NCBI GenBank assembly: GCA_002869885.2 | Contig: NEWR02000001.1 | Coordinates: 39,118-91,521 of the forward strand | DNA length: 52,404 bases | Source of the DNA: Nitrospira sp. CG24C | GTDB lineage: Bacteria; Nitrospirota; Nitrospiria; Nitrospirales; Nitrospiraceae | Reading direction: 5' to 3' | Shown: piece by piece, positions 3 to 38,036 of the stretch | How positions within the stretch are numbered: position 1 is the first letter of the stretch | Layout: each line of letters starts with the position of its first letter | Notes under the pieces: generated by a model | What the model saw: only the letters and a program-made list of their open reading frames with translations | What the model was told of the DNA's origin: nothing | Database searches by the model: none | Translations under genes and position numbers: made by a program

Positions 3-105
3 AACTGGTCTGTTTGGTCTATCTGGTTGGTCTGGTTTGTTTGGTTGAACGAAACTAACCAAATAAACAAAACAAACCAAAGAAACCAAGCAACGTTATT
101 CTTCT
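3..105. repeat. Nonamer hairpin repeat, copy 1
   Basis: A left arm of degenerate TGGTTTGTT-like 9-bp units is followed by the core GGTTGAACGAAACTAACC and then by a complementary arm of AACCAAATA-like units. The right edge is AACGTTATTCTTC, which matches edges of copies 4, 11 and 13. It lies immediately upstream of the 70-aa gene. Confidence 0.85.
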
Positions 106-109
106 GCTG

Positions 110-322
110 ATGGCTGACAACAACGCACTCTACGCGGTTCGCTTTCCAGATGGGTCGGTGAGCCTGTACATCGACGAAGACTACGCGATTGAACGAGGGG
201 TGGATCCGGCTACTCTCACACGCGTGGAAATCCCACGGGATCTGTTCGTCAGCGGGACCATTCAAGAGATTCGCGAATATGTCGCCGTCTATTTGGAGTC
301 GCATCAAACCGGCACGGCGTAG
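110..322 (+). CDS. Hypothetical 70-aa protein
   Basis: This is a short open frame with ordinary codon use for the region, beginning at an ATG just after the repeat at 3-105. The product is acidic and has no membrane segment or signal peptide. It has an alternating beta/alpha look: residues 7-20 resemble a small strand hairpin, and the C-terminal part from about residue 45 is a plausible helix. I do not recognise the family. No clear Shine-Dalgarno sequence precedes the ATG (the preceding bases are CTTCTGCTG), so the start is uncertain. The gene is followed by a heptamer repeat block. It could be a small conserved protein of unknown function; a spurious frame is less likely given its composition. 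Confidence 0.5.
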   Translation: MADNNALYAVRFPDGSVSLYIDEDYAIERGVDPATLTRVEIPRDLFVSGTIQEIREYVAVYLESHQTGTA

Positions 323-339
323 CGCGACAGGCGCGACTC

Positions 340-487
340 GAAGTTCTGAGTTTTGAGTTCTGGGTTTTGAGTGACCGGAAAAGCTGGAAGAGAAGTGCTG
401 AGTCCGCGGCTTCGCCGAGTTTTGAGTGTTGAGTTATGAGTGCTTCGTTGGTTCCTGATAACTCAGAACTCAAAACTCAGAACTTCC
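340..487. repeat. Heptamer (GTTCTGA) hairpin repeat block
   Basis: Tandem GTTCTGA/GTTTTGA units run from 342 and return as the complementary TCAGAAC/TCAAAAC units at about 465-485. Two unit clusters are separated by unique sequence. The same family recurs at 1729, 7759, 11050, 25833, 26370, 33690 and 34409. Confidence 0.8.
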
Positions 488-493
488 CAGAAG

Positions 494-515
494 TATTCAT
501 GAATATTGCGGGCTA
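494..515 (+). repeat. Solo terminal inverted repeat of a MITE-like element
   Basis: The motif ATTCATGAATATTGCGGGCTA closely resembles the right end of the 21383-21560 element (ATTCATGAATAACCCGGCTA). Only one end is present here, directly before the ATG at 521. Confidence 0.5.
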
Positions 516-520
516 GCTCA

Positions 521-1711
521 ATGACTCCCATCGCTTCACCACCATCGCTTCTGACTATTGAGACGATCCGATCCGTCATCGATGCCATGCCCATGCAAGG
601 GAGGATCATGCTTCGGCTGATCCTCCTCCAATACTTCGACGTGACGGACGAAGAGATCCTCTACATCGTGACAGACCGGCCGGATCCCCGCTGTGTCGCC
701 GGGACCAAGCCCACCAATACCAGCATGACCAAGGAATCGATCAAGGTTGTGACGGACCGGCGCGACCAATACCGCCGGCAGGTACGGCTCAAACGGGAGC
801 GGACGTGGCTGCAATGCGAATGTCTTCGAAGTCTCACGCAGCTCCGTGAAGCCTTCGCCGACCGTGCCGGCGCCCTCTTAAGCGAGCGTTTCTCCGTCTC
901 CGCCGACCAGCTTGAGGCCTTGCGCGCATCGGCGAGAACCGTGCTGCCCAGGCCTGCAATCCGTCTACTGGATGAGCGTTGGACTGCCGATGAAGTCACG
1001 GCTGAGGACTATCAACGGCAACGGCTCAGCATCGAATTCCAAACTCAACTCCGCATGGCGGAAAAGTATCGCAAACGGCTCGGCCTGGCGGAACGCGAGC
1101 GGGAGAATGCGATCTCGGCGCCGCTACAAGATCATGAAATCGCACATGTTTGGGGTATCCCCGCCGGCAGTCTCGCCGCCCGCAAAGTGAAGTACCTCTC
1201 GCAATATCTACAATCCCTTCAGGCCACGCTACCAACCGGCGCGGCAGCCACGGCAACAGCGCCATTGGACCTGTGGAAGGAAACCTTCTCGGTGCTCGCA
1301 GCGCAATCTATCACACGTTCACTTTCGAGCTACGACGGGTTGGAAAAGACAGAGTCCGCTCTCATCGACAAACTGACCGCCATGGTCTGGGGCAGCTTAC
1401 CCGAAGAGATCGAAGTCAAGTTCTGGACCTCGCTCGTGTTCGGAGCTAGCTCCAATGCCATGCACTCAGAAATTACCAGGAGCTTGTTTGGACTGCAGCG
1501 GCTCATCACCATCTTCAACGATATGGATCGCTCTCCCGAAGCAGTGGATGAAGAGTTGCTCAAGCGAGCTGCACCCATACCAAAGCTGGAAGAGGGTGCG
1601 CTTGAAGCCCCGGTCGAGCCTCCAGCAAAGGAATTGAGCGAGATGCAGACGCAGATCCTCAACAATATGAGGGGAGAAGACGCAAGCGGGAAATCCTCCG
1701 ATAAATGGTAG
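521..1711 (+). CDS. Conserved hypothetical protein, 396 aa
   Basis: A long, well-formed coding frame without signal peptide or membrane segments. An in-frame TTG at 506 would add five residues, but the ATG at 521 gives a cleaner N-terminus. The central part (about residues 60-220) is rich in Arg, Glu, Gln and Leu and is probably helical or coiled coil. A region near residue 210-225 (AHVWGIPAGSLAARKVKYL) resembles a helix-turn-helix recognition segment. The C-terminal 50 residues are Glu/Pro/Ala-rich and likely disordered. I do not recognise the family. An intracellular, possibly nucleic-acid-associated role is only a guess. It is followed by a heptamer repeat and then by a separate promoter, so it is probably monocistronic. 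Confidence 0.65.
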   Translation: MTPIASPPSLLTIETIRSVIDAMPMQGRIMLRLILLQYFDVTDEEILYIVTDRPDPRCVAGTKPTNTSMTKESIKVVTDRRDQYRRQVRLKRERTWLQCECLRSLTQLREAFADRAGALLSERFSVSADQLEALRASARTVLPRPAIRLLDERWTADEVTAEDYQRQRLSIEFQTQLRMAEKYRKRLGLAERERENAISAPLQDHEIAHVWGIPAGSLAARKVKYLSQYLQSLQATLPTGAAATATAPLDLWKETFSVLAAQSITRSLSSYDGLEKTESALIDKLTAMVWGSLPEEIEVKFWTSLVFGASSNAMHSEITRSLFGLQRLITIFNDMDRSPEAVDEELLKRAAPIPKLEEGALEAPVEPPAKELSEMQTQILNNMRGEDASGKSSDKW

Positions 1712-1728
1712 CGCGAGGAAGGTGAAGG

Positions 1729-1777
1729 AAGTGCTGAGTGCTGCGTGCTGAGTTAGTTCCGGACAACTCAGAACTTC
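1729..1777. repeat. Heptamer hairpin repeat, short copy
   Basis: GTGCTGA/GTGCTGA-like units, the core GAGTTAGTTCCGGACAACTC, and a complementary arm. The core is identical to the one at 7788-7807. Confidence 0.8.
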
Positions 1778-1821
1778 CTTGCTCATCCCTCCCCCGTCTC
1801 ACTTGAATTATGCGTCCTTGA

Positions 1822-1849
1822 TTGCACTTTGGCCCCAGTTCGGTATAAT
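1822..1849 (+). promoter_or_regulatory. Sigma-70-type promoter of the OB-fold gene
   Basis: TTGCAC at 1822-1827, a 16-bp spacer, then a perfect TATAAT at 1844-1849. The expected transcription start (about 1856) lies within five bases of the ATG at 1861, and no ribosome-binding site is seen, so the message may be leaderless. Confidence 0.65.
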
Positions 1850-1860
1850 ACCTTCACATT

Positions 1861-2298
1861 ATGGCCAGACCGTCCAACAGCCAGCCACTGCGTCAGCATC
1901 ACCGAATCACACTTTCCCTGATTCTTCTACTTCCCCTGCTCGCCTTCAGCCTGGTACCGCTCCCTGTTCATGCATTAGGTCTTCTGGAAATCACCGAGCT
2001 GCTTACCCATCCCGAGCAATACGACCGCCAAGAAGTAGTGGTCGCCGGCCAGGTCACCAACGTCCAACTCGCGACGAATCGGCAAGGACAACCGGCCTAT
2101 GGATTTCTCTTGAAGGATCCGGCCGGGACGCTGAAGGTCATTAGTCTCGGGCAGGTTGACGTTCGGGAAGGCGACCAGGTGATTGTGGAAGGAGTCTTCT
2201 CGCGCCTTCGCCAGGCAGGACGCACGATCATCTACAACGAAATCAAAGCCCTCTCGATCAAGCCGATGAACCGGCTCAACCCCGACCTCGTTGGCTAA
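1861..2298 (+). CDS. Exported OB-fold-like protein, 145 aa
   Basis: Residues 1-38 form a signal peptide: basic N-region (RQHHR), a Leu-rich core and a VHA-LG cleavage-like site. The mature part (about 105 aa) has the pattern of a small OB-fold domain of the tRNA_anti-like/YgiW-like kind. It contains a strand with VVVAGQVTNVQ, then YGFLLKDPAGTLKVIS, then VREGDQVIVEGVFSR. Such domains bind oligonucleotides, oligosaccharides or other ligands, or act as cytochrome-maturation-like chaperones, so no specific substrate can be given. It is probably periplasmic. The ATG at 1861 sits almost at the predicted transcription start of the TATAAT promoter. The gene is followed two bases later by a nonamer repeat, so it is monocistronic. 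Confidence 0.7.
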   Translation: MARPSNSQPLRQHHRITLSLILLLPLLAFSLVPLPVHALGLLEITELLTHPEQYDRQEVVVAGQVTNVQLATNRQGQPAYGFLLKDPAGTLKVISLGQVDVREGDQVIVEGVFSRLRQAGRTIIYNEIKALSIKPMNRLNPDLVG

Positions 2299-2389
2299 AC
2301 TGGTTTGTTTGGTTCATTTGGTTTGTCTTGTTTATTTAGTTGATCCAGACCAAATCAGAAAAACCAAACAAACGTAACAAACCAAAAAA
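2299..2389. repeat. Nonamer hairpin repeat, copy 2
   Basis: TGGTTTGTT/TGGTTCATT units, a core variant GTTGATCCAGACC, then complementary units. It fills the gap between the stop codons of the convergent OB-fold and dehydrogenase genes and could act as a bidirectional hairpin. Confidence 0.85.
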
Positions 2390-2397
2390 GCCTTCTG

Positions 2398-3249
2398 TTA
2401 ACCTCCGCGGGGATACTTCAGCGCCCAGACCAGCAACCTGTCCTGCATTCGATCCGGCAACCACTTCACCATCCAGGCACGCAGCTTGGCATCGGAGCCC
2501 ACCAGATAGCGGGTGCGAGGGCGAGAGGCCGTCAACGCATGATGCACCGCCCGGACCACGGCGTCCGGTGCGATCGCCCGTTGAGCCGCTTGAGCGATCG
2601 CTTCACGAATTCGAATGACCGCCTCGCCGTACAAGGCCTTCGCCTCTGCGCTGACCGAGGCTTCAAGACCCTCTGCTTCCTTGGCTGACTTCTCCCAAAT
2701 CGGCGTCGCAATCGCTCCCGGTTCGATAATCGACACCTGAATCCCCCAGGGCTGCAGCTCCATTCTCAACGCATCGGTCAGCGCCTCCAAGGCATACTTC
2801 GATGCAGAATAGGGCCCCAGCAACGGAATGGTCCCTCGTCCGGCAATCGATCCCATGTTCACGATTCGACCGCGGCCACGGCGTAACAACGGGAGAAAGG
2901 CTTGCGTGACAGCGATTTGCCCGATTACGTTGACCTCAAGCTGCTTCCTGAGATGCGACAACGGAATTACTTCGAGAGGACTGCCGACGACGATCCCGGC
3001 ATTATTGACGAGCCCTCCAAGGCCCTTCTTGCCCAGAACCAATTGCACCGCCTCAACAGATCGCGCGATCGATGGCTCATCTGTGACGTCGAGCGTGATG
3101 GGAATGAGCGACGGCCCGCCCTTCGCGGCAAGCGCCTCCCCCGCCCGAGGGTCGCGCACGCCGGCAAAGACCGTCATCCCGCGACTGGCGCAATCGAGTG
3201 CGCAAGCCGCACCGATGCCGGTCGAGGCGCCGGTCACAACAACAGACAT
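2398..3249 (-). CDS. Short-chain dehydrogenase/reductase (SDR), 283 aa
   Basis: Classical NAD(P)-binding SDR. The cofactor motif TGASTGIG is at residues 6-13, the NNAG motif (GLVNNAG) is near residue 80, and the catalytic Ser and YSASK (Tyr/Lys) pair are near residues 130-150. The PG motif (EPGAIATPIW) follows. Length is typical for classical SDRs with a C-terminal extension. The frame stays open upstream to 3348, but those 33 codons are pure nonamer repeat (Asn-Gln-Thr repeats). The ATG at 3249 directly precedes the first beta strand and is preferred. The substrate cannot be deduced; oxidoreduction of a small alcohol, ketone or lipid precursor in the cytoplasm is the family role. The gene is convergent with the OB-fold gene. 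Confidence 0.85.
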   Translation of the reverse strand: MSVVVTGASTGIGAACALDCASRGMTVFAGVRDPRAGEALAAKGGPSLIPITLDVTDEPSIARSVEAVQLVLGKKGLGGLVNNAGIVVGSPLEVIPLSHLRKQLEVNVIGQIAVTQAFLPLLRRGRGRIVNMGSIAGRGTIPLLGPYSASKYALEALTDALRMELQPWGIQVSIIEPGAIATPIWEKSAKEAEGLEASVSAEAKALYGEAVIRIREAIAQAAQRAIAPDAVVRAVHHALTASRPRTRYLVGSDAKLRAWMVKWLPDRMQDRLLVWALKYPRGG

Positions 3250-3250
3250 C

Positions 3251-3405
3251 TGGTCTATTTGGTTTGTTTGGTTCATTTGGTTAGTTTGGTTGATCTGGTT
3301 TGTTTGGTTTGTCTGGTTCATTTGGTTTTTCTGATAAGTCTGGTTCAACCAAACAAACGAGACAAACTAAATAAACCAAACAAACCAGATCAACCAAATA
3401 AACAA
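3251..3405. repeat. Nonamer hairpin repeat, copy 3 (long)
   Basis: About ten T-rich 9-bp units, a core in reverse orientation (GTCTGGTTCAACCAAAC), then about seven A-rich complementary units. It abuts the start codon of the dehydrogenase gene, so it must lie in the 5' leader or promoter of that gene. Confidence 0.85.
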
Positions 3406-3479
3406 GTAGCCGAGAGTACCACGGCAGCATGAACGAGAGCAGCCTTCCCGAATGTTACCAAGAATTAACCCCACCGACC

Positions 3480-3508
3480 TTGACAGGCTATGGTCCTTTC
3501 ATTATGGT
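3480..3508 (+). promoter_or_regulatory. Sigma-70-type promoter of the ppx operon
   Basis: A perfect TTGACA at 3480-3485, a 17-bp spacer and TATGGT at 3503-3508. The transcript would carry a leader of about 130 nt containing the GGCTGAA repeat block. Confidence 0.5.
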
Positions 3509-3528
3509 TTCTGAGCGTAACTGCTGAG

Positions 3529-3628
3529 GTAGATAGGCTGAAGGTGTTTAGACTGAAGTGTTCGGAGCCCCGCCTTCAGCCTAAAACCCTTCAGCCTGTA
3601 TCCGGAGCCTTCAGCCTAAATACCTGAG
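3529..3628. repeat. GGCTGAA-family hairpin repeat
   Basis: AGGCTGAAGG/AGACTGAAG units are followed by several CCTTCAGCCT units on the same strand, giving complementary arms. It sits in the probable leader of ppx. The same family occurs at 18975, 21607 and 32087. Confidence 0.75.
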
Positions 3629-3641
3629 CCGTTACTATTCT

Positions 3642-5192
3642 ATGTCCAAGATTGCCGTTATCGATATCGGAACGAACTCCATCCATATGGTGCTGGCCGA
3701 GATCCAGCCTGATGCAGGCTACAAGGTTCTCGATCGCTTCAAAGATATGACGAGGCTCGGGAACGGCGCGTTTACAGCCCACCGCCTCTCCGATGAGGCG
3801 ATCACACGCGGGCTCGACGTCATTCGTAATCTCGTCACCCTGGCGAAGAACAAGGGCTACGACCGCATCATCGCCGTCGCCACCAGCGCCGTGCGGGAGG
3901 CAAAAAACGGAGGAGACTTTATCGATCTCGTCGCCGAACAGACGGGACTGTCCGTTCGCGTCATCAGCGGAACCGAAGAAGCCAGGCTGATTTTCCTCGG
4001 CGTCAAAAACAATGTGCCCATGACAGAGCAGCCGACGCTCTCGGTCGATGTCGGCGGTGGATCGGTCGAGCTGATGGTCGGAAATCGCGACCAGCTCCTC
4101 CACTCAAAGAGCCTGAAGCTGGGCGCGATCAGGCTGGCGGATGAATTTCTGAAGCGTACGCCCCCGTCCGAGGGGATGCTCCGCTCACTCGAAAACACGG
4201 TGACGGCTCAGTTACAGGTCGCCCTCGATTCGTTCAAGACAAAACGATTCGATTCCCTGATCGCCACCTCCGGCATGGCGGGCAACTTGGCGGAAGTCAT
4301 TCATTTACGCCGAACCAATCGCCCGCTCCCCCAAATCAATCTCGCCACGATCTCATTGAAGGACGTCAAAGAGATTGAGCAGGATCTCCGCCAATCCACG
4401 CTGAAAACCCGGTTGGCCATCCCCGGGCTAGATCCTCGGCGCGTGGACACCCTCTTTCCAGCCACCGTAGTCCTTCGGCGCCTGATGGAACTCTCAGGGC
4501 GAGACGAACTCATTTTGTGCGACAAGGCCATTCGCGAAGGCATCATCTACGACTTTATCCAGCGCCACCGCGAACGGCTCAAAGCGGAAGCGGAGATCCC
4601 CGACTTGCGGCGGCGCACCGTCATCGCGCTGGCCCGCCGTTGCCAAGCCCCGGAAGTCCATAGCCTGCACGTCGCCGGCCTGGCCCTGCGTCTCTTCGAT
4701 CAGACGGTACGCCTCCATCGCTTAGGCCCCTCAGAGCGAAACTGGCTTGAATATGCCGCAATTCTGCACGACGTCGGCTACCTCATCAACGAGCGCCAGC
4801 ACCACAAACACGCCTACTATCTGATCACCAATAGCGGCCTCGGAGGATTATCCAGCGAGGAGATTGCGGTGGTCGCCAACGTCGCGCGCTATCACCGGCG
4901 CTCAGTCCCTCAACTGAAGCACGAGGGATTCAGTTCTCTCTCCCCCAAATACAAACGCATCGTGCGAATCCTGTCCGCGCTGCTTCGAATCGCCGACGGC
5001 CTGGATCGGACGCATTTTTCTGTCGTCCGCACCCTCAATGTGAAACTTGGTTCCGTCGTCACCATCACGGTGCACGTGACGGGCGATGCCGAGTTAGAAA
5101 CCTGGGCCGCCGCCGGCCGGGCCGATCTCTTTGAACGCGTGTTCCGCCGCCGGGTAAAATTTTCCGTCATCTCTCAGGACGATGCCGCATGA
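3642..5192 (+). CDS. ppx: Exopolyphosphatase / pppGpp phosphohydrolase family protein (Ppx/GppA) with HD-type C-terminal domain
   Basis: The N-terminal actin-like ATPase-fold Ppx/GppA domain spans residues 1-300. DIGTNSIHMVL (6-16) is the first phosphate-binding loop, GTEEARLIFLGV is near residue 107, and SVDVGGGSVELMVG near 130 is the second glycine-rich loop. The C-terminal part (about 320-500) carries HD-domain-like motifs (VHSLHVAGLALRLF, then AAILHDVGYLI). This is the usual layout of long Ppx/GppA enzymes (about 500 aa). The family hydrolyses terminal phosphates of inorganic polyphosphate or of pppGpp; the sequence alone does not decide which. The ATG follows a repeat-filled leader and has no strong ribosome-binding site. 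Its stop overlaps the next start (ATGA), indicating translational coupling with the two kinase-like genes. Confidence 0.9.
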   Translation: MSKIAVIDIGTNSIHMVLAEIQPDAGYKVLDRFKDMTRLGNGAFTAHRLSDEAITRGLDVIRNLVTLAKNKGYDRIIAVATSAVREAKNGGDFIDLVAEQTGLSVRVISGTEEARLIFLGVKNNVPMTEQPTLSVDVGGGSVELMVGNRDQLLHSKSLKLGAIRLADEFLKRTPPSEGMLRSLENTVTAQLQVALDSFKTKRFDSLIATSGMAGNLAEVIHLRRTNRPLPQINLATISLKDVKEIEQDLRQSTLKTRLAIPGLDPRRVDTLFPATVVLRRLMELSGRDELILCDKAIREGIIYDFIQRHRERLKAEAEIPDLRRRTVIALARRCQAPEVHSLHVAGLALRLFDQTVRLHRLGPSERNWLEYAAILHDVGYLINERQHHKHAYYLITNSGLGGLSSEEIAVVANVARYHRRSVPQLKHEGFSSLSPKYKRIVRILSALLRIADGLDRTHFSVVRTLNVKLGSVVTITVHVTGDAELETWAAAGRADLFERVFRRRVKFSVISQDDAA

Positions 5193-5938
5193 GCAGCCAG
5201 CCCCCTCCATCCATGACCCCCCACCCCTACCCTGGGAAACTCATCATCGTCGAGGGAATCGACGGGTCAGGAAAGAGCACGCAACTGCTGTTACTGCACA
5301 AGTGGCTGGAGTCCAAAGGGCATAAAGTCTTTTTCACGGAATGGAACTCCTCGGAACTGGTCAAAGAAACGACCAAGCGGGGAAAGAAAAACAAAAGCCT
5401 GACCCCGACGACGTTCAGCCTGCTCCATGCGACCGACTTCGCCAGCCGGCTGTATCATGAAATTTTACCCCCGCTCAAAGCCGGCATGATCGTCTTGGCC
5501 GACCGCTACATGTACACCGCCTTCGCCCGTGACGTAACCCGAGGCGTATCGCCCGAATGGATTCGCAAACTCTATAGCTTCGCGATCACCCCGGACATGG
5601 CCTTCTACTTCAAGGTGCCGATCGAGGTCGCCATCTCGCGGCTCCTCGGAGGCACGCGCGGCCAGTTCAAGTACTACGAAGCCGGCATGGACATGAACCT
5701 GAACCAGGATGTCACTGAAAGTTTTCGTCTCTTCCAATCGAGCATCCTGGCCCAGTACAAGAAGATCGTCGATGAGTTTCAGCTCATCACGATGGATGCG
5801 ACGAAAGACATCGAAACCCAGCAAAACGACATGCGCCTGCTCGTGGGAGAGGCGCTCAAAGATTACAAACCACGGCGAGGCACCCATGGTCGACGCACGG
5901 TATTTTGGCGACGGTTTGACGTACCTAAATCCGAGTGA
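5189..5938 (+). CDS. Thymidylate kinase-like P-loop kinase, 249 aa
   Basis: This protein shows the dTMP kinase fold. The Walker A motif GIDGSGKST is at about residues 23-31, preceded by the strand KLIIVE. A DRY motif in LADRYMYTAFARD (about residues 103-115) is the magnesium/phosphoryl-transfer element of the family. The known reaction is ATP-dependent phosphorylation of dTMP to dTDP. The LID region is unusual, and the C-terminal tail (about 30 residues rich in Arg) is longer than in housekeeping enzymes of about 210 aa, so the substrate may differ. It starts inside the ppx stop codon (ATGA overlap) and its 3' end overlaps the next, homologous gene by 53 nt. Confidence 0.85.
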   Translation: MSSQPPPSMTPHPYPGKLIIVEGIDGSGKSTQLLLLHKWLESKGHKVFFTEWNSSELVKETTKRGKKNKSLTPTTFSLLHATDFASRLYHEILPPLKAGMIVLADRYMYTAFARDVTRGVSPEWIRKLYSFAITPDMAFYFKVPIEVAISRLLGGTRGQFKYYEAGMDMNLNQDVTESFRLFQSSILAQYKKIVDEFQLITMDATKDIETQQNDMRLLVGEALKDYKPRRGTHGRRTVFWRRFDVPKSE

Positions 5939-6620: not shown

Positions 6621-6692
6621 GAAGAACGTTATTCGGTTTGTTTGGTTTGCCTCGTTTGTTTGGTTGAATGAAATCGCCAAATAGACCAGCCT
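6621..6692. repeat. Nonamer hairpin repeat, copy 4
   Basis: The left edge GAAGAACGTTATT is followed by GGTTTGTTT units, a core variant GGTTGAATGAAATCGCC and a short right arm. It starts directly after the stop codon of the second kinase gene. Confidence 0.8.
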
Positions 6693-6694
6693 GT

Positions 6695-6723
6695 TTGACG
6701 AGCCCTGTCCCATGCAGTAGAAT
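6695..6723 (+). promoter_or_regulatory. Promoter of the toxin-antitoxin operon
   Basis: TTGACG at 6695-6700, a 17-bp spacer and TAGAAT at 6718-6723. It is located 45 bp before the antitoxin ATG and is overlapped downstream by the dyad operator. Confidence 0.75.
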
Positions 6724-6752
6724 GTGCATCACTATGATGCACGAGTGATGCA
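6724..6752. promoter_or_regulatory. Dyad operator of the toxin-antitoxin operon
   Basis: A perfect inverted repeat GTGCATCA-CTA-TGATGCAC at 6724-6742, then a third half-site GTGATGCA at 6745-6752. Its position over the transcription start fits autorepression by the ribbon-helix-helix antitoxin. Confidence 0.75.
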
Positions 6753-6767
6753 TGGAGGTGTGGCGCC

Positions 6768-7426: not shown

Positions 7427-7440
7427 CGGGCTGCGGTGCA

Positions 7441-7541
7441 TCTTGTTTGTCTGGTTTATTTGGTTTGTCTCGTTTGTTTGGTTGAACGAAACTAACCAGA
7501 TGAACCAAACAAACAAAACAAACCAAATAGACTAGATAACG
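7441..7541. repeat. Nonamer hairpin repeat, copy 5
   Basis: T-rich 9-bp units, the canonical core GGTTGAACGAAACTAACC and a complementary arm. It lies just after the toxin stop codon. Confidence 0.85.
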
Positions 7542-8073: not shown

Positions 8074-8149
8074 CTGGTTTGTTTTGTTCATTTAGTTAGT
8101 TTCGTTCAACCAAAAAACCAAACAAACCAAATGAACTAAATAAACCAAC
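8074..8149. repeat. Nonamer hairpin repeat, copy 6
   Basis: Reverse orientation core (TTAGTTTCGTTCAACC) between T-rich and A-rich arms, placed 15 bp before the start codon at 8165. Confidence 0.85.
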
Positions 8150-9380: not shown

Positions 9381-9493
9381 GTTGGTTTGTTTGGTTCATT
9401 TGGTTTGTCTCGTGTGTTTGGTTGAACGAAACTAATCAGACAAACAAAATCAACCAAATGAACCAAACAAACCAAATAGACCAGATGAACCAG
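9381..9493. repeat. Nonamer hairpin repeat, copy 7
   Basis: Begins two bases after the stop codon of the FGE-like gene. Core GGTTGAACGAAACTAATC, long complementary right arm. Confidence 0.85.
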
Positions 9494-10518: not shown

Positions 10519-10550
10519 GCATAGTCCACATGATTCATGACAGTTCGTGT

Positions 10551-10630
10551 GTGGTCTTTCTGGTTGATCTGGTTTGTTTAGTTGATTTGGTTCATCTGGT
10601 TAGTCTGGTTCAACCCAAAAAACAAGACAG
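10551..10630. repeat. Nonamer hairpin repeat, copy 8
   Basis: T-rich units, then a reverse-orientation core (GGTTAGTCTGGTTCAACCC) and a short A-rich arm. It lies 38 bp upstream of paired dyad module B. Confidence 0.8.
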
Positions 10631-10667
10631 ACGCGTTCCTTCCTACGCTTCACGCGCAAGAGCGACT

Positions 10668-11092: not shown

Positions 11093-11178
11093 TCTGGTCT
11101 ATTTGGTTTGTTTGGTTCATTTTGTTCGTTTCGTTCAACTAAAAAACCAAACAAACAAAACAAGCCACATAAACAAGC
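11093..11178. repeat. Nonamer hairpin repeat, copy 9
   Basis: T-rich arm, reverse-orientation core variant (TCGTTTCGTTCAACTAA), A-rich arm. Confidence 0.8.
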
Positions 11179-11257
11179 CATGCCAGCCCGTATACCCTCA
11201 AACGGGTCTATTGCTAAAAATGCCGTACAGGTTTAATAGAAGCCACCAGTTGCTTGT

Positions 11258-22935: not shown

Positions 22936-22973
22936 TGAGAACCACCTTCGCCAGCGGAACAGAAGAGGCCCGT

Positions 22974-23046
22974 TATTTGGTTTGTTTAGTTTGTCTCGTT
23001 TGTTTGGTTGAGCGGAACTAACCAGATGAACCAAATCAACCAGATC
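22974..23046. repeat. Nonamer hairpin repeat, copy 10
   Basis: CGTTATTTGGTTTGTTTAG left edge, core variant GGTTGAGCGGAACTAACC, right arm AACCAAATCAACCAG. It separates modules C and D. Confidence 0.8.
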
Positions 23047-23164
23047 GCCCCTCTTATCCGCTTCTAACGCGCACACCTCTTTCAGCATTTCCGGCTAATT
23101 CATTCCTCATTTCACATTCCTTCCCCGTCTTCCAACTCAGCACTCTGCACTTCCCCTCCTCCAG

Positions 23165-28754: not shown

Positions 28755-28867
28755 GAAGAACGTTGTTGGTTTTTTTGGTTTGTCTCGTTTGTTTGGTTGA
28801 ACCAGACCAACTCGATGAACTAAATGAACCAAATGAACTAAATGAACCAAATAAACCAAATAAACAG
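28755..28867. repeat. Nonamer hairpin repeat, copy 11
   Basis: The left edge AAGAAGAACGTTGTT follows the stop of the multi-PAS gene. T-rich units, core GGTTGAACCAGACCAAC and a long A-rich arm that enters the next gene. Confidence 0.85.
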
Positions 28868-29810
28868 GCTCTTCTACGCAGGGCGTTCCTTAGCCGCCTG
28901 GGCGGTGGCGGGACTCGGCCTGTTGCTCGGCCTTTGGACCCTCAATGTGTCCGAATCCTCCGCCATGGACATTGCCATCCTGCAGTCTTCCGACATTGCG
29001 GCCTATCGCGAAGCCATTGCAGGCTTGAAGGCCACCGGCCCGATAGGAGCAACCTATACCGAGTACGATGCGCAAGGCGACCTGGAGCTTGGGAAAAAGC
29101 TCGCGCGCAAGTTGCGGGCATCGAATGCGTCACTGGTCGTCGCCGTGGGACTCAAGGCCGCATTGGCAGCGAAAGTGGAAATCGAGGATGTCCCGATCGT
29201 CTATATGATGGTCCTGGACCCGTTCAAACATCAGCTCACATCCGCCAACATCACCGGCACGCTCCTGGAGATCCCCTTCGACCGACAGTTGAAGATCATG
29301 CGGACATTCCTGCCGGCCCTTCACCGGGTCGGCATGCTCTACGATCCAGTGAAAAACGCCTCTCGAATTAAGATCGCGGTGGAGCAGGCCGGTATCGTTG
29401 ACGTTCAAGCGAAAGGGCTTCCCGTCGAGAGTGAGAAGGATGTTCCCCAGCAATTGCGCACGCTGCTCTCGGATGTTGAGGCCCTTTGGCTCATACCGGA
29501 TTCCGCTGTATTGACGAATGAGTCTATCCCCTTCATCCTTGAATCAGCGCTCGCAAGTCATATACCAGTAATCGGGTTCTCACCGGAGCTCACACGTCTG
29601 GGAGCGCTGCTCAGCATGTCCGTCAACTACGGCGATGTCGGACGGGACACCGGACTGCTCATGAAGCGCATTCTCAACAATGAAGGGCTGCTGCCGCTCA
29701 ACCCCGTGCCGATCGAGCGACTGAAGATTACCGTCAATCTCAAGACCGCAAGGTTTCTCGGCATCACATTTCCAAAGGAGCTGATGAGCCTCATCGATGA
29801 AACCTACTGA
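28842..29810 (+). CDS. ABC-type substrate-binding protein (PF04392-like), 322 aa
   Basis: A periplasmic-binding-protein fold of the ABC_sub_bind family. It shows the pattern DIAILQSSDIAAYREAIAGL, SLVVAVGLKAALAA, VPIVYMMVLDP, a central MRTFLPALHRVGMLYDP and IPVIGFSPELTRLGALLSMSVNYGDVGRD. A hydrophobic stretch at residues 16-36 is a signal peptide or anchor. The first nine residues (MNQINQINR) come from the right arm of the nonamer repeat and no ribosome-binding site is visible, so the start codon itself may be repeat-derived. No permease or ATPase is adjacent. Its stop overlaps the start of a sensor kinase by 14 nt, suggesting a ligand-sensing role for the kinase rather than uptake. Confidence 0.8.
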   Translation: MNQINQINRLFYAGRSLAAWAVAGLGLLLGLWTLNVSESSAMDIAILQSSDIAAYREAIAGLKATGPIGATYTEYDAQGDLELGKKLARKLRASNASLVVAVGLKAALAAKVEIEDVPIVYMMVLDPFKHQLTSANITGTLLEIPFDRQLKIMRTFLPALHRVGMLYDPVKNASRIKIAVEQAGIVDVQAKGLPVESEKDVPQQLRTLLSDVEALWLIPDSAVLTNESIPFILESALASHIPVIGFSPELTRLGALLSMSVNYGDVGRDTGLLMKRILNNEGLLPLNPVPIERLKITVNLKTARFLGITFPKELMSLIDETY

Positions 29811-32109
29811 TCCGGACAGGCAAGTACATCCTTCTGACCAGCCGGCGAATACCCTGGCTCCCCCACCATTGCATGTACGCCATGTCCTCGGTCTGCGCCC
29901 GAAGTTTGTGTTATTTTTCAGCCTCATTCTCATCGTCGTCTGTTCGACCTTGAGCGGGTACTACGTCGAGGCGAGGAGAGAGGCGATGACCGGCAACCTT
30001 CTGCAGCTCGGAAGGATTCTCCTCACGAGTGTCGTCCATAATGAACACTTCCACTATGCAGGAATCGTAGCGGAAGATCGCCGCACGCTCCAACAGTTCA
30101 TTGATGGTCTCGTGACTGTCCAGGAGGTGGTGTATGTGGTCATCACCCGCTCAGACGGAATCGTGCTCGCTCAGCACACGAAGGGTTCACGCCAATCCTC
30201 TGCCGACCTTGTGCGGTCCCTGGATAAACCGCTGTACCCGCAGCCTCAGATTGTGAAACAGCTCTTCCAATCGACGAATACCACTCCTCTCGTGACAGAT
30301 TTCCCCCTCTCCACCAAAATAGGAAGCGTATTTGGATTAGATGAAATCGTGTACGATTTTGCACTGCCTGTGCAACGAACGGCAAAAGGAAGCGCCTCGC
30401 TGCCCCCATTTTCTCTTCAGCTGGATGAAGGCAGCGCCGACGCTTCCTCAACACAGCCGGCACTTATCTCCGCGGTCGTCCAAATAGGGTTGACCGACGC
30501 CCACTTGAAACAGGATCTCGCGGTGATGATCAGAGATATTCTCATCTTCACCTCCTTGATTATCGGAGCAGGCGCACTCGGCACCCACTTGCTCACCCTC
30601 CGTATCACGAAGCCGCTGAGGAGCCTTGCCGCTGTGGCTCAGCAAGTGGCTGAGGGCCTTTCACCGATGCCCCTCACACCCTCCACCCGCGACGAAGTCG
30701 GCCAACTGACCGGCATGTTTAACCTGATGACCTCCTCGCTACAGGAAAGGAATGTCGCCATTTCAGCAAACATGGCGACCATCAAACACCAGGTCGATCA
30801 ATTGACCACATTACATCAAGTCAGCGCGGCCATCGCCCAGACGCTGGACCTAAACCAGATTCTTCGCACCGTCCTGCAGCTCCTGATCGCCAACCTGGGT
30901 TTTACGCGTATGTTTGTGACGCTACGACATCGCGAACGAGACACGGCATATGTGGCCCACATCATCGGGGTCGCGCCGGACATTGCGGAGGCCGCTCGCC
31001 GGCTTGTTGTGCCGGTCCGGAGCGATGGCGGCCTCCAAGCCGACCTGCTGATTCTTGGCAGACCCTTGCTCGTCCCAAGCCTTGAGGCCGTGGCCGATCG
31101 CGTGCAATCACCGATGCTGGAGCTGGCCCGCCGAGCCGGAGTGACGTCCTTCGTCGCGGTGCCGCTTCAGAGCCAGAACCAGACGCTGGGATACCTCGCC
31201 GGTGACCGGGGCTCACAACCCTGCACGGACGAAGATCTTCATATGCTGTCGACGATCGCCGGCCAGGTCGCAGCGGCCATCGACAATGCAAACGCCTATT
31301 CCCACCTCGAAGAACTCACCCAGCATCTCGAACTGCGTATTGCAGAGCGCACGCAGGAAGTGACCGCCGCGAATGAGCGCCTCCAGGAACACGATCGGCA
31401 GCGGTCGCTGTTTCTCTCTGTCGCGTCCCATGAATTGCGCACCCCCATGACCGTCATTCGCAGCTTTGCAGACAATATGCGTGACGGTATTGCAGGGCCG
31501 GTGAGCGAACAACAAATGACCTACCTCATTCGTATCGGACATAACCTGAGTCGGCTCACCAGAATCATCAATCAGTTGCTCGACTGGTCGCACCTTGAGA
31601 GCAAAAATGAAATGCTCTGTCTCGCACCGGTCTGCCTCGAAACCACGGCACTCCTGGTTATCGACAGTTTGCGCGCCGTCGCGGCTGAAAAAGCGATTAC
31701 ACTCGAGGTCAGGCATGCTGATGGGCTTCCAGCGGTCCAGGGGGACAGCGATAAGCTGGAGCAGATTCTCTGGAACCTCATCGGCAATGCGATCAAGTTT
31801 ACGCCGCCGGACGGCCGCGTCACCGTCGATTTACAGATGACCCCCGACGGCTTTGTCCAAACCTCTGTTGCCGATACCGGCTGCGGCATTGACCCGGGCC
31901 ATCTGGAATCAGTCTTCAAGGAGTTTTCCAAGGTGCCGTCTGCCAACCACGCCGCTCAGGGGGCTCAGCTTGGCCTGTTCATTACTAAAAGCCTGGTGAC
32001 GATGCATAAAGGGACCATCTGGGTGGAGAGCATGCCAGGGACCGGCACGAAATTTTACTTTACAATGCCTATTTGCAGCCAGGTAGATAGGCTGAAGGCT
32101 GAAGGCTGA
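29797..32109 (+). CDS. Membrane sensor histidine kinase (HAMP-GAF-HisKA-HATPase), 770 aa
   Basis: TM1 is at about 35-55 and a periplasmic sensor loop spans about 56-245. TM2 is about 246-268, followed by HAMP (270-320) and a GAF domain (about 345-505). A coiled coil and HisKA follow with phospho-acceptor His545 in SHELRTPM. The HATPase domain (about 650-760) has N-box NLIGNAIKF and G1 DTGCGI; the second Gly box is unusual, GAQLGLFITK rather than GTGLGL. The protein ends with VDRLKAEG encoded by a GGCTGAA repeat. It overlaps the binding-protein gene and precedes an NtrC-family regulator gene, forming a probable three-gene signalling unit. Confidence 0.9.
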   Translation: MKPTDPDRQVHPSDQPANTLAPPPLHVRHVLGLRPKFVLFFSLILIVVCSTLSGYYVEARREAMTGNLLQLGRILLTSVVHNEHFHYAGIVAEDRRTLQQFIDGLVTVQEVVYVVITRSDGIVLAQHTKGSRQSSADLVRSLDKPLYPQPQIVKQLFQSTNTTPLVTDFPLSTKIGSVFGLDEIVYDFALPVQRTAKGSASLPPFSLQLDEGSADASSTQPALISAVVQIGLTDAHLKQDLAVMIRDILIFTSLIIGAGALGTHLLTLRITKPLRSLAAVAQQVAEGLSPMPLTPSTRDEVGQLTGMFNLMTSSLQERNVAISANMATIKHQVDQLTTLHQVSAAIAQTLDLNQILRTVLQLLIANLGFTRMFVTLRHRERDTAYVAHIIGVAPDIAEAARRLVVPVRSDGGLQADLLILGRPLLVPSLEAVADRVQSPMLELARRAGVTSFVAVPLQSQNQTLGYLAGDRGSQPCTDEDLHMLSTIAGQVAAAIDNANAYSHLEELTQHLELRIAERTQEVTAANERLQEHDRQRSLFLSVASHELRTPMTVIRSFADNMRDGIAGPVSEQQMTYLIRIGHNLSRLTRIINQLLDWSHLESKNEMLCLAPVCLETTALLVIDSLRAVAAEKAITLEVRHADGLPAVQGDSDKLEQILWNLIGNAIKFTPPDGRVTVDLQMTPDGFVQTSVADTGCGIDPGHLESVFKEFSKVPSANHAAQGAQLGLFITKSLVTMHKGTIWVESMPGTGTKFYFTMPICSQVDRLKAEG

Positions 32110-32245
32110 AGGTTTAAAAGCGCCTGACGAGCGCTGTGTTAGTGATTTGAGGAGTATATTTTCCTGAGCGCATAATCTAGAATTCGGCTCAGTCTCCAAC
32201 TTGAGGACCCGACTAATAACCTTCAGCCTTCAGTCTAAACACCTG
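32087..32245. repeat. GGCTGAA-family hairpin repeat between kinase and regulator
   Basis: Tandem AGGCTGAAGGCTGAAGG at 32090-32110 and complementary CCTTCAGCCTTCAGTC at 32221-32236, enclosing about 110 bp of unique sequence. The left arm supplies the kinase stop codon. Confidence 0.75.
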
Positions 32246-32253
32246 AGTCCAGC

Positions 32254-33693
32254 ATGCGTGCAAAAATCCTCATCGTCGACGACGACCGCGATATCCTTCT
32301 CGGACTCGAGAATCGTATCACCTGGATGGGGCACGAGCCTGTCACAGCCGACAACGGCAAAGACGCGCTGCGCCTGCTCGAACAAGGAGAATTCGATCTC
32401 GCGCTCCTGGACTTGGAACTGCCTGGTCTGTCCGGTCTGGAGGTTCTGGAGCGGGTGAAAGGCGCTTCGCAGAGCGAGCGGCAAACCGGAAAGGATACCA
32501 GCGCAACTCACACCACCCCGCTCATCATCATTCTCACCGCATTCGGCACCATCGAGCGCGCCGTGCAAGCCATGCAGCTCGGCGCGTTTGATTTCCTGAC
32601 GAAACCGTTCAGCGCCGATCACCTGACCGTCGTGATCAACAAAGCCATGGCCGCGGTGGCGGTACACCGTCAGGTCGACGTCCTCCGTCAGGAAATCGAC
32701 AATCGCTACGATCACCTCGTGGGGGCCAACGCCAAGATGGCTACGCAACTCACGATCGCCAAGCAAGCAGCGCAGACCGACGTGACCGTCATCCTGTTCG
32801 GTGAAACCGGTACGGGAAAGGAAGTCGTGGCCCGCGCCATTCATCGTTGGAGTCCACGCCGGTTGAAACCTTTCGTCGCAGTCAATTGTGCGGCACTGCC
32901 AGAAAACTTGCTCGAGAACGAGCTGTTCGGTCATGAGAAGGGCTCCTTCACCGGGGCGGTCAAACGGGAACCAGGCAAGATCGAAGTCGCAGAAGGGGGA
33001 ACGGTGTTTCTTGATGAAATCGGGGATATGCCGCTCCCACTACAAACCCGTCTGCTGCGGGTCATCCAGGATCAGACCTTCTATCGTGTGGGTGGAACCC
33101 AGCCGGTGAGCACCCATGTACGTTTCATCGCGGCCACGAACAAAGACATACGGCGCGCAATCCAACAGGGCACCTTTCGTGAGGACTTATACTACCGGCT
33201 TGCCGTAATCACTGTGACCCTCCCGCCCCTGCGTGAACGGATAGACGATGTCCCTGCACTCGCCCGGCATTTCCTCGATCGGGTAGTCAAAATGGGGATT
33301 CATCGCTCCTGCGCCCTGAGCGACCAGGCCGCACGGGCGTTGCAACAGTATCAGTGGCCTGGCAACATACGCGAACTTGAAAATGTGCTGATGCGTGCGG
33401 TTATTTTGTGCCCCAAGGACACCCTTGAGGCCTCGGACCTGCATCTGGGAGATTCACCGTTCTCCTCGTCGGCTGAGGCCGAAACCGGATCTCCTCCCCT
33501 TCACTACCATGAGTGCGTCGACGTCTACAGCCGGAAGATCATCGAAGAGTCGTTGCAAAGAAATGGATGGAACCAAACAAGAGCAGCCGAAGAGCTCGGC
33601 CTTCAACGGACCTACCTCACGAAATTGCTCCGTCAGAAAGACATCTCCGGCAGACAACCCTCTGAAAACAGCGGTGAGCAGGGGGAGGCATGA
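32254..33693 (+). CDS. Sigma-54-dependent response regulator (NtrC family), 479 aa
   Basis: Receiver domain (residues 4-130; DDD at 9-11, phospho-acceptor Asp53 in LLDLEL, Lys in FLTKPFS). The AAA+ domain spans about 155-385, with Walker A GETGTGKE at about 183-190 and the sigma-54 contact loop as GSFTGA near 230. Walker B is VFLDEIGDM and the arginine-finger region [10 protein letters not shown] Fis-type helix-turn-helix ends the protein (about 440-470; [21 protein letters not shown]). It is the only enhancer-binding protein in the window. Together with the upstream kinase it is a candidate, unproven, for binding the (G/T)AATC-N6-GATTC dyads and activating the four sigma-54 promoters. Confidence 0.93.
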
Positions 33694-33797
33694 ATTCTGA
33701 ATTAGAAATTATGAATTAGGAATTATGAATTGTAAGTGAGGTCCGGACAACTCAGGTTTCTCTGTTTAGCTTCGTTCAACCAAACACCTGACAAGGT
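33690..33797. repeat. Mixed repeat block (AATTATGAATTA units, heptamer core, nonamer fragment)
   Basis: GAATTCTGAATTAGAAATTATGAATTA-type units occur at 33690-33732 and the core GTCCGGACAACTC at 33742-33754. A nonamer fragment (GTTCAACCAAACA) ends it. It lies between convergent genes. Confidence 0.6.
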
Positions 33798-34938: not shown

Positions 34939-35053
34939 TCTGGTTTGTTTGGTTCATTTGGTTTATTTGGTTTGTCTGGTTGATTTAGTTCATCTGGTTA
35001 GCCTGGCTCACCCAACCAAATAAACAAAACAAACCAAACAAACGAAATAACGT
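34939..35053. repeat. Nonamer hairpin repeat, copy 13
   Basis: T-rich arm, reverse-orientation core variant (GGTTAGCCTGGCTCACCC), A-rich arm, right edge AATAACGTTCTTC. It lies between the pentapeptide gene and the stop of the receiver-ATPase gene. Confidence 0.85.
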
Positions 35054-35058
35054 TCTTC

Positions 35059-35970: not shown

Positions 35971-36326
35971 GATGAAAACCCTTCTGCGATCAATTTCCGA
36001 AGCGCATCATGCACCTCGGCCAAAGATGTCTCGACATCCGCGCAGACCGACGACGCCTCAGCAAGCTCCCCTTGCCGGCCCAATTCTTCCAATCGTTTTG
36101 CGCGCTCGAAGAGACGCGGCGCGCACATCTCTATGACGGATCCCTTGAGCTTATGGGCAGCAGCCGCCAACCCGGCCCCATCCTGCTTCCCCAGTGCCAC
36201 GCGAATCGCCGCAGCCTCCTTCTGACTTTCTTGCAAAAAGAGCCCGGCCAAGGTGAAGAACAAGTCCTGATCTCCGTCCACCCGGTTCAAGGCCTCGGAA
36301 AGGTCCAATACCGATGTCTTATCCAT
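35967..36326 (-). CDS. Histidine phosphotransfer (HPt) domain protein, 119 aa
   Basis: A single all-helical HPt domain with the phospho-acceptor His58 in AAAAHKLKGSV, the family hallmark. Start at ATG 36326 (GAGAGG upstream) overlaps the end of the PP2C gene by eight bases; an ATG at 36338 would add four residues. It would shuttle phosphate between receiver domains of the adjacent genes or the larger hybrid kinase at 42160, and could be dephosphorylated by the SixA-like enzyme encoded at 33850. Confidence 0.9.
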   Translation of the reverse strand: MDKTSVLDLSEALNRVDGDQDLFFTLAGLFLQESQKEAAAIRVALGKQDGAGLAAAAHKLKGSVIEMCAPRLFERAKRLEELGRQGELAEASSVCADVETSLAEVHDALRKLIAEGFSS

Positions 36327-37590
36327 TGAGCCTCTCATCCGGATCGCCGGTCATCTCAATCCCCACGACCGCCGCATCGTCCGGAAAGTGTTGCGCCTGT
36401 TGCCAGCCTCGTGCTGCTGAAAAAGATGACGCGATGGTCGCCGAAAGAGACATCGGCTTCCCCTCGTCGATCGTTTTTTGGAAGCGTTCACGGCCCCAAA
36501 GCTCTCCGCCAGGAGAGGACACTTCGTATATCCCGTCGCTCAATAAAAACAGCCGGTCTCCCGGCTTCAAAACGATACGGTCGCATGCATACAGCGCGGA
36601 CGGATCGAATCCGAGAGGAAACGATGAGCGCATGAGCCACCGGGCAGGACTTTGAGTCTGGCTGAGCAAGGCGCCCGGATGGCCGGCTGAAGCATAGGTC
36701 AGTCTGCCTGTCGGCAAATGAAGCTGTCCGACCCACAGAGTGAAATACTCCCCATCGGCACTCAGGGGAAACCGCCGATTGGCCTCGAACAACACCTGCT
36801 CAGGATCGTAGGACCCGATCAGCTGTATAATATTTTCTGCTCGCAGGAACGTCATCAGCGAAGCCGAGCGCAGCGCGGCGGCAACCCCATGTCCCGACGC
36901 ATCCAGTATGTAGAGGCCAAGGTGTTCTGCATCGATCGCCATCACGCCAAAGAGGTCGCCTCCCAACGTTAAGGACGGCTGATACTCCCACGCCAACGAG
37001 ATACCCTGAACCGGACTTCCTTGCGGAGGGAGCAATGAGTGGACGAAGGCAGCGGCCGAATGAAGATCCGTCTCCATTTCCTCCTGCTTCGCTTGCAGCA
37101 AGAGAAGGGACGACTCGAGTTGAGAGCTGGTGGTTTCCAGTTCTCGGACCAACCGGCTTGTGCGCAGACCGGCCAACACCCGCGCGGTAATTTCTTGTCT
37201 GCTGGCCGCTTTGCTGAGAAAGTCGTCGGCGCCTCGCAACAACCCTTCGGCAATCTGGGCCGGCTTATCGTGGGAAGTCATCAGGAGAATCTGGCTGGAT
37301 TTCAACAGGGGGTCACGGCGCACCGCTTCACAGAAGGTCGGTCCGTCCATCTCCGGCATCATCCAATCGACAATGATCAGATCGGGGCGTTCGCGCCTGG
37401 CCACGTCGAGACCCGCTCGTCCGTCCTCCGCTTCAAGAACTCGATACCCCAGCCGCGTCAGCCTCGCAGCCATACTCGCCCTGGTGACCGGTTCATCTTC
37501 CACAAGGAGAATCGCAGCAACGAACGTCTTCGGTTGTGCAGACGAATCGAGACCCTGCCCGGTGGGTTGCAGTGCGTTTGAATGCATCAC
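36319..37590 (-). CDS. Receiver domain plus PP2C-type (RsbU/SpoIIE) phosphatase, 423 aa
   Basis: Receiver domain at about 25-145: acidic ED at 31-32, phospho-acceptor Asp75 in IIVDWMMPEMDG, and Lys in DDFLSKAAS. A coiled-coil linker (about 150-190) is followed by a PP2C-like SpoIIE phosphatase domain (about 200-415). The metal-binding motifs are LGGDLFGV, LYILDASGHGVAAAL, LLSDGIYEV and FPDDAAVVGIE. RsbU-type phosphatases dephosphorylate STAS antagonists, matching the STAS gene 21 bases upstream. Phosphorylation of the receiver probably controls the phosphatase. Operon with HPt and receiver-ATPase genes by overlapping ends. Confidence 0.93.
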   Translation of the reverse strand: MMHSNALQPTGQGLDSSAQPKTFVAAILLVEDEPVTRASMAARLTRLGYRVLEAEDGRAGLDVARRERPDLIIVDWMMPEMDGPTFCEAVRRDPLLKSSQILLMTSHDKPAQIAEGLLRGADDFLSKAASRQEITARVLAGLRTSRLVRELETTSSQLESSLLLLQAKQEEMETDLHSAAAFVHSLLPPQGSPVQGISLAWEYQPSLTLGGDLFGVMAIDAEHLGLYILDASGHGVAAALRSASLMTFLRAENIIQLIGSYDPEQVLFEANRRFPLSADGEYFTLWVGQLHLPTGRLTYASAGHPGALLSQTQSPARWLMRSSFPLGFDPSALYACDRIVLKPGDRLFLLSDGIYEVSSPGGELWGRERFQKTIDEGKPMSLSATIASSFSAARGWQQAQHFPDDAAVVGIEMTGDPDERLNG

Positions 37591-37611
37591 GCTCCGTGAC
37601 TCACATCAGAC

Positions 37612-37950
37612 CTATGCCGCACGCGCGATAAGCGCGTCTTGCTCGTTTTCATAGATGGGAATCATCTTGGGAATATTCGCCAGGCTCATGATCTCCCGCA
37701 CGTAGTTCTGCGGTTTCAGCATACTGACCTGCGCCTGCAGACGTTTAAAACTCTGCGACACGAGCACGAGCAGTCCGAGCCCTGCGCTGTCCACGAATCG
37801 CACCTGCTCCATATTCACAATGAGGTGCCGACAGCCGGCCTGTTTCGCCTTCTCGACGGCCACCTTAAAGGCAGCTTGATTGGCATAGGTCAAGTCTCCC
37901 TCCAGGTCCAAGATGATTCCCTGTGGAAGAACGCGTTCTTTGATTTTCAT
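37612..37950 (-). CDS. STAS-domain anti-sigma factor antagonist, 112 aa
   Basis: A compact STAS domain: IILDLEGDLTYANQAAF, then LIVNMEQVRFVDSAGLGLLV with the phosphorylatable Ser55 in DSAGLG. Members of the SpoIIAA/RsbV family bind an anti-sigma kinase when unphosphorylated. Start at ATG 37950 is supported by AAAGGATG; the frame upstream to 37998 enters a nonamer repeat. First gene of the STAS / receiver-PP2C / HPt / receiver-ATPase operon. No sigma factor gene is present in the window, so the output could be non-transcriptional. Confidence 0.92.
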   Translation of the reverse strand: MKIKERVLPQGIILDLEGDLTYANQAAFKVAVEKAKQAGCRHLIVNMEQVRFVDSAGLGLLVLVSQSFKRLQAQVSMLKPQNYVREIMSLANIPKMIPIYENEQDALIARAA

Positions 37951-37977
37951 GACATCATCCTTTCTTGTGCAGATTAA

Positions 37978-38036
37978 CGAATGGTTTGTCTGGTTCATCT
38001 AGTCTGCCTGGTCTATCTGGTTGAACGAAACTAGCG
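37978..38036. repeat. Nonamer hairpin repeat, copy 14
   Basis: T-rich units and the core GGTTGAACGAAACTAGC; the right arm is nearly absent. It sits upstream of the STAS operon and is joined to a short TTTCACG repeat (38038-38061). Confidence 0.75.

Follow-up and report, generated by a model that had tools for sequence, protein, structure and literature searches.

Several types of short repeats are pertinent to the element considered here, a hairpin composed of degenerate 9-bp units (hereafter, the 9-mer element) that recurs in a 52,404-nucleotide stretch of the genome of Nitrospira sp. CG24C (contig NEWR02000001.1 of assembly GCA_002869885.2, positions 39,118 to 91,521; hereafter, the window). 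Miniature inverted-repeat transposable elements (MITEs) are non-autonomous inverted-repeat elements. Repetitive extragenic palindromic (REP) sequences are high-copy, species-specific extragenic palindromes for which roles in transcription termination have been suggested, and the tabulated REPs flank a RAYT gene and take the form of short palindromes carrying a GTAG-like head (PMC2817692). The short tandemly repeated repetitive (STRR) or heptanucleotide hairpins of cyanobacteria consist of degenerate short direct repeats with pairing arms and a variable copy number, and are located in intergenic regions or in one slot, two classes of repeat having been observed in a single slot (PMC3488679, PMC2670836). 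The TAACTGA heptamer repeats of Beggiatoaceae are intergenic, made of short units and patchily distributed; they are direct repeats located mostly ahead of start codons, with inversion in 1 of the 170 sets tabulated for the genome (PMC4679880).

We are inclined, with moderate confidence, to regard the 9-mer element as a non-autonomous, dispersed palindromic element of Nitrospira, REP- or MITE-like but with arms built of tandem units, that has spread by duplication and collects behind genes. When the copies are oriented by their centre and read in 9-mers, a single plan emerges: T-rich 9-mers, a centre, GGTTGAACGAAACT or GGTTGAACCAGACT, and then A-rich 9-mers. The common version reads [AGAAGACCGTTATTT] GGTTTGTTT GGTTTGTCT CGTTTGTTT, followed by the centre GGTTGAACGAAACT and by AACCAGATG AACCAAATN AACCA..., and a second type of centre reads ..GAACCAGACT. 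The unit is approximately YTNGTYNRT in the T sense, the arrays of the two arms point in opposite directions from the short asymmetric centre, and the complete element is roughly 80-150 bp long. In the register GGTTTGTTT, the unit positions G2, T3, T7 and T9 are nearly invariant by alignment and by eye (the tally of units partly presupposes this invariance); other positions vary mainly by transitions.

All 14 places listed in the initial annotation of the window hold this plan in the directions assigned there. A sequence-only profile made from 13 of these copies scores better on the assigned strand in each of the 13 larger copies, an agreement with some circularity, given that the same copies, oriented in this way, had served to build the profile. 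The profile recovers its 13 source copies, as it must, and detects weakly, at 21 bits, the fragment at 33766, which is in the reverse direction. The dispersed copies fit one asymmetric profile with a shared order of units. As annotated, the element is not a simple microsatellite. The outer edge described for several copies is real, with AGAAGACCGTTAT present within 3 mismatches in 25 of 71 copies from the same genome and in none of the shuffled flanks. As annotated, the centre is asymmetric, but the sharp contrast between a conserved core and variable units did not hold: in 55 own-genome copies chosen by core match, the mean information is 1.46 bits per position in the 14-nt centre compared with 1.34, 1.17, 0.99, 0.62 and 0.13 bits in the successive units to the left, and 1.31, 1.40, 1.24, 0.99 and 0.53 bits in those to the right. 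Because the centre barely exceeds the adjacent units, there is no sharply distinct core. The core conservation of the 172 copies from related genomes is inflated because their loci were fetched by the exact core pattern or by synteny.

Nitrospira are nitrite and complete ammonia oxidisers, and the 9-mer element is an abundant intergenic element concentrated in one genus-level group of these bacteria. In the 2,994,827-bp genome of CG24C, 72 distinct copies were identified in 451,521 bp (the window and 20 stretches mostly chosen for strong hits), and 27 copies, compared with 1 when the sequence was read backwards, in 400,000 bp of 20 further 20-kb stretches that were not chosen by hits. The second sample was picked by position from the parts left over once the hit-rich stretches were in use, and an underestimate of the density is therefore more likely than an overestimate. 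Extrapolation to the genome gives ∼200 copies, or ∼240 if the 72 are kept as counted and the remainder is extrapolated (range 200-250); a profile search of the genome yields at least 156 matches, some of which are the two strands of one copy; this total is not a copy count. The family is genome-wide, and the many copies of the initial annotation are borne out. Profile matches were detected in 13 of 13 genomes of the genus compared with none of the 8 genomes from other families of the order. Under stricter filters, 9 of 118 genomes of the phylum have a match: all four sampled members of the genus, 4 of the 13 genomes of one sister genus (1-6 matches each), and one genome of another family, with a single place matched on both strands. 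The exact core pattern occurs in at least 113 stretches of named genome contigs and, among the matches listed (80 of the at least 113), all are titled as metagenome-assembled genomes of Nitrospira, Nitrospiraceae, Nitrospirae or Nitrospirota. The initial annotation knew of no named family to which the element could be assigned. Rfam at gathering scores gives no match in the window, and the family was not found described among the top-ranked results of searches of the literature on Nitrospira repeats and on short-unit hairpin repeats; a 2025 survey of REPs has N. moscoviensis in a table (PMC12306157).

The copies are intergenic. Genes were called with a home-made hexamer caller, and distances were measured from the profile match rather than from the true end of the element. 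The midpoint of a copy falls within a called gene in 0 of 72 cases in the first sample, 0 of 27 in the second, and 1 of 142 placed copies in related genomes. Among the 48 copies in gaps between tandem genes, 35 are nearer to the upstream stop codon, 12 are nearer to the downstream start codon and one is equidistant, with median distances of 20 nt to the stop and 83 nt to the start; if the copies were placed uniformly, the median to the stop would be 53 (p printed as 0.0 in 10,000 trials, that is, 0.001 or less). The preference persists when the test is restricted to the 23 copies that lie 100 nt or more from the start and that zone is excluded (median 19 compared with 45, p 0.003), and in the second sample, where 10 of the 12 tandem copies are nearer to the stop (medians of 23 and 148, p 0.02), so that the annotated association with gene ends was found in both samples, including the one not chosen by hits. 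Arrays with a period of 7 or 14 also prefer the stop side (28 of 42), so this location is not special to the 9-mer family; the end motif described below, where it occurs away from 9-mer copies, leans to the stop side as well (15 of 22, p 0.06). In the first sample, TAG stop codons are in excess beside copies (27/58 compared with 93/337 elsewhere, p 0.013); the second sample does not repeat this excess (9/22 and 93/333, p 0.43), and therefore we do not lean on this association.

Among the observations in favor of spread by duplication are copies that share more than the central plan. Over 133-135 nt, three own-genome copies from different surroundings match one another at 91-95%; they begin and end at inverted ends of the CAGGATGCT type. 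Among the 244 copies from this and related genomes, 45 carry at least one further end (37 left, 15 right), counts obtained without a shuffled control, with the left end defined as GGATGCTGAAAAAGTCCGCCAGC with up to 6 mismatches in 23 positions, and the right end as its complement under the same limit or TTTGAGCATCC with up to 1. The 23-nt end motif occurs 99 times within 2 mismatches in the own genome compared with none when the sequence is read backwards. The same ends bracket a MITE-like repeat, 116-130 bp in all, with a quite different interior; paired ends, which are present in few copies, enclose the 9-mer element, another interior or, in one case, a 7-mer array of the CGTGAAG type. Nesting is found in both directions: a 9-mer element within ends within a 7-mer array (locus L052, near 1481), and a 7-mer array within 9-mer arms (the G028 gap at site 3251).

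Comparison of orthologous gaps reveals turnover. Anchors in related genomes were obtained for 7 of the 14 window sites, providing 64 orthologous gaps with flanks that are 65-98% identical. The 9-mer element is present in 24 of these gaps; 13 contain a period-7 array and no 9-mer element, 5 only the end motif of the other repeat (a label that, at site 28755, was triggered by ordinary flanking sequence as well), and 22 nothing recognised, although in some of the latter other repeats can be seen, and in one a broken 9-mer element. The 24 copies are split evenly between the orientation of the own genome and the opposite one (12 each), with the direction taken from the better profile strand, which is uncertain for the weaker matches (36-45 bits). 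Inversion of the centre in place was rejected, given that orthologues of opposite direction resemble each other in their outer arms no more than copies from different sites do (28 gaps, p 0.43). At the same site, arms and numbers of units differ between species by eye. The flavour of the units also differs: the GTC-type share of double units is 39/283 in G000, 126/221 in G021 and 10/180 in G028, counts with high backward controls because arrays also fit the pattern when it is reversed (GTC-type: 26, 71 and 8, respectively; GTT-type: 37, 24 and 34). The GTC-type units thus predominate in G021 and not in G000, to which it is closely related; the DNA of G021 is 92% identical over window positions 1986-6624. 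At site 6621 (window 6615-6625; L160 near 4700), the own genome and G021 share the flanking TAAGAAG, which includes the stop codon, and carry different repeat families.

Under the scenario that we favor, copies would multiply through some form of duplication and accumulate immediately behind genes, after which the arm units would change quickly by substitution and, judging by eye, by gain and loss of whole units. Gene-end gaps would act as slots where one repeat takes the place of another, a behavior suggested by the other short-unit or MITE-like repeats that occupy the same gaps in relatives. Movement would occur in trans, with insertion perhaps directed preferentially to gene ends or to existing palindromes, and the element would have no RNA function. 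The 9-mer element thus looks like a fast-changing and probably mobile element rather than a preserved RNA structure. The initial annotation had offered two options, a role at transcript ends or in mRNA stability and a mobile or replicating hairpin; the second appears to be the better one.

Several observations weigh against spread of a mobile element. At the thresholds used, 199 of the 244 copies lack a shared end, and a target-site duplication was not evident in a partial search. No mobilising enzyme was found by the PF01797 and end-motif-pair searches: the single PF01797 (Y1-transposase, RAYT-like) match in the own genome has different inverted ends (GGGGTCA...) and no 9-mer copy in its 3.3-kb locus, and mobilisation by a RAYT is accordingly unsupported; for the end motif, 7 inverted pairs are located 0.7-2.6 kb apart, and inspection by eye of the initial 160 residues of the longest frame revealed no recognisable transposase, so that no autonomous parent bounded by this motif was found there. 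Copies at the same site may instead have been inherited and inverted where they stood; two pairs of orthologues (G000/G005 at site 2299 and G022/G023 at site 3251) are suggestive of this, but the comparison of outer arms gave it no support. Finally, some results favor an RNA role. When the partners are moved one unit outward in the own genome, standard pairs amount to 71.5% compared with 70.0% in shuffles (5/500), with Watson-Crick pairs not clearly above the shuffles (94/500). From other genomes, 129 copies yielded a total of 251 double-change cells compared with 224 in shuffles (5/500), with Watson-Crick pairs at 57.7% compared with 56.9% (18/500), and the unit flavour of the left and right arms is correlated (rho 0.51, n=124), whereas in the own genome rho is -0.27 (p 0.06, n=48).

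A more specific version of the slot idea is possible, and we put it forward tentatively: the gene-end gaps of Nitrospira would be exchange slots, and one process would make or insert inverted arrays of 7-bp or 9-bp units around family-specific asymmetric centres, sometimes nested, swapping one family for another and leaving the flanking genes unmoved.

Less likely, in our assessment, is a selected RNA element at transcript ends that would protect 3' ends, couple genes or terminate transcription, as proposed for REPs and for the cyanobacterial STRR hairpins. The position right behind stop codons agrees with such a role, as does the core direction, which follows transcription in 79 of 130 tandem copies. 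Divergent gaps are under-occupied in the first sample (8 of 68 copies compared with ∼15 predicted from spacer length) but not in the second (6 of 26 compared with ∼7 expected). The folds are very stable: for the 113-nt central region in the own genome, the mean z-score against dinucleotide shuffles is -5.1, and 63 of the 69 copies folded have a score below -2 (short flanks or N led to the omission of 3 of the 72), and the duplex of the real arms has an energy of -30.0 kcal/mol compared with -17.8 kcal/mol for shuffled arms. However, an arm pairs with its own partner no better than with that of another copy. In the own genome, the within-copy duplex energy of -30.0 compares with -31.1 between copies, the former being better in 23 of 63 cases; in related genomes, the values are -33.5 and -32.6, with the within-copy duplex better in 78 of 157. 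The alignment score concurs (25 of 55 own copies and 36 of 70 others; the test covered 55 of the 72 copies in the own genome and, from the other genomes, the first 70 that were eligible). Copies with a poor core match or short flanks were dropped from the duplex, conservation, mismatch and covariation tests. Arm complementarity thus characterises the family as a whole rather than the individual copy.

The covariation check proposed in the initial annotation gave, for the main register in 50 own-genome copies, 57 double-change Watson-Crick cells compared with 56.4 in shuffles. The weak excesses in other genomes could be produced by subfamilies, or they may reflect pairing. The G-U mismatches outnumber the A-C ones 562 to 376 in the core direction, compared with 298 to 260 in the mRNA direction (p 0.12), and the sign flips in copies that point against transcription (73 G-U and 123 A-C); the bias thus tracks the direction of the core, not that of the mRNA, which counts against a pair-preserving RNA role. 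In window positions 1-12500, there is no enrichment of terminator-like sites (a T run preceded by a G+C-rich stem): they number 13 compared with 14.4 in shuffles, and one of the 13 overlaps a copy. The same position behind genes is occupied also by unrelated 7-mer arrays, and many orthologous gaps contain other repeats or nothing recognised. With within-copy pairing no better than pairing between copies and own-genome covariation at or near the shuffle level, a selected RNA hairpin is unsupported, and the pairing, mismatch-direction and covariation tests led us to set it aside as the principal interpretation. Translation of the element as an L-V-x repeat, for which the unit leaves room, was rejected as well: Phe codons are common, in 108 of 610 T-first units, and the copies are intergenic in both directions.

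It is improbable that the 9-mer sequences never moved but were made and remade in place, through slippage of short units combined with template switching in palindromes. The variation of arms and unit numbers between species at a single site, noted above, and the arrays formed by units of other lengths (7 and 8) are consistent with such a process, but 72 and 27 places in the two samples fit the same asymmetric profile, so that independent local origin does not account for the copies, and near-identical copies have different flanks. That the copies are arrays of binding sites, with the 9-bp unit recognised by a DNA- or RNA-binding protein and selection on the units rather than on pairing, appears quite unlikely: it agrees with the near-invariance of some unit positions and the predominance of transitions at others, but no candidate protein was found, none having been sought, the unit flavour differs genome-wide between close relatives, and the array is missing from many orthologous gaps.

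Within the window, the forward copies start with that at 3..104, which has the right edge AACGTTATTCTTC, and include those at 2299..2392 (CCAGACC-type core, adjoining a TAA stop codon), 6621..6689 (left edge GAAGAACGTTATT and a short right arm), 7441..7540 (the nearest to the family profile, 90.1 bits), 9381..9493 (with its start adjoining a TAG stop codon), 22972..23048, 28755..28868 (left edge GAAGAACGTTGTT, following a TAA stop codon) and 37981..38035, a truncated copy that consists of the left arm and core only. The reverse copies are the longest one at 3247..3406, the outer end of which overlaps a possible ATG start of the neighbouring gene (3249, minus strand), and those at 8074..8148, 10548..10635 (CCAGACT-type core), 11093..11182, 33755..33792 (a core fragment next to a 7-bp-unit array) and 34939..35056 (edge GAAGAACGTTATT, core longer by 4 nt).

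Other families of degenerate 7-bp-unit arrays (AGTTCTG, AGGCTGA, ATGAATT and CGTTTCA types), often inverted, are found in similar gaps of the window, at 340-490, 1728-1776, 7757-7832, 25833-25985 and 26365-26413; at 3524-3628, 18964-19104, 21601-21724 and 32078-32247; at 33690-33731; and at 16982-17074 and 22549-22621. Across the 451,521 bp of the first sample, which was mostly chosen for 9-mer hits, the intergenic tandem arrays have mainly periods of 9 (95 arrays) and 7 (49 arrays). The window also contains an array of 13 degenerate 8-bp units, TTACCCCT (39897-40005), and a repeat of ∼186 bp with inverted ends GGAGCCTGTC... (10763-10949) that has many matches across the genus at 86-90% identity and is probably another MITE-like element. 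Among the genes, a small conserved called gene of ∼70 codons (110-322), with ∼77-92% DNA identity in the genus, lies directly behind the first hairpin copy; the gene at 8165-9379 has many paralogous matches (∼68-79% identity) in the own and related genomes; and the products of two overlapping neighbour genes at 5189-6620 both resemble P-loop thymidylate kinases by eye.

An abundant component of Nitrospira genomes that was not found described in the literature searched can now be named. The most interesting part appears to be the orthologous sites at which unrelated short-unit repeats substitute for each other in gene-end gaps, and which make the origin and spread of bacterial short-unit hairpin repeats testable. 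The 9-mer element also illustrates that a strikingly strong and significant fold need not mean a selected RNA.

By comparison with the known systems, the 9-mer element would work most like a REP or a MITE. Similar to the REPs and bacterial interspersed mosaic elements (BIMEs), it is a high-copy extragenic palindrome, but it does not flank the RAYT-like gene of its own genome and its arms are arrays of 9-bp units. It resembles MITEs in being small and dispersed, with inverted ends in the fullest copies; unlike MITEs, most of the copies have no such end, and neither a parent transposase nor a target duplication was found in the partial searches. As to intrinsic terminators, no enrichment is seen in window positions 1-12500. 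Both the 9-mer element and the TAACTGA repeats are intergenic, made of short units and patchily distributed, but the arms of the Nitrospira element are inverted and its copies lie mostly behind stop codons. With the STRR or heptanucleotide hairpins, exemplified by the P6b stem of the Nostoc trnL intron, it shares degenerate tandem units on both arms; in contrast to these hairpins, the unit in Nitrospira is 9 bp rather than 7 bp, the copies share one asymmetric centre, and their ends are partly common to a MITE-like repeat.

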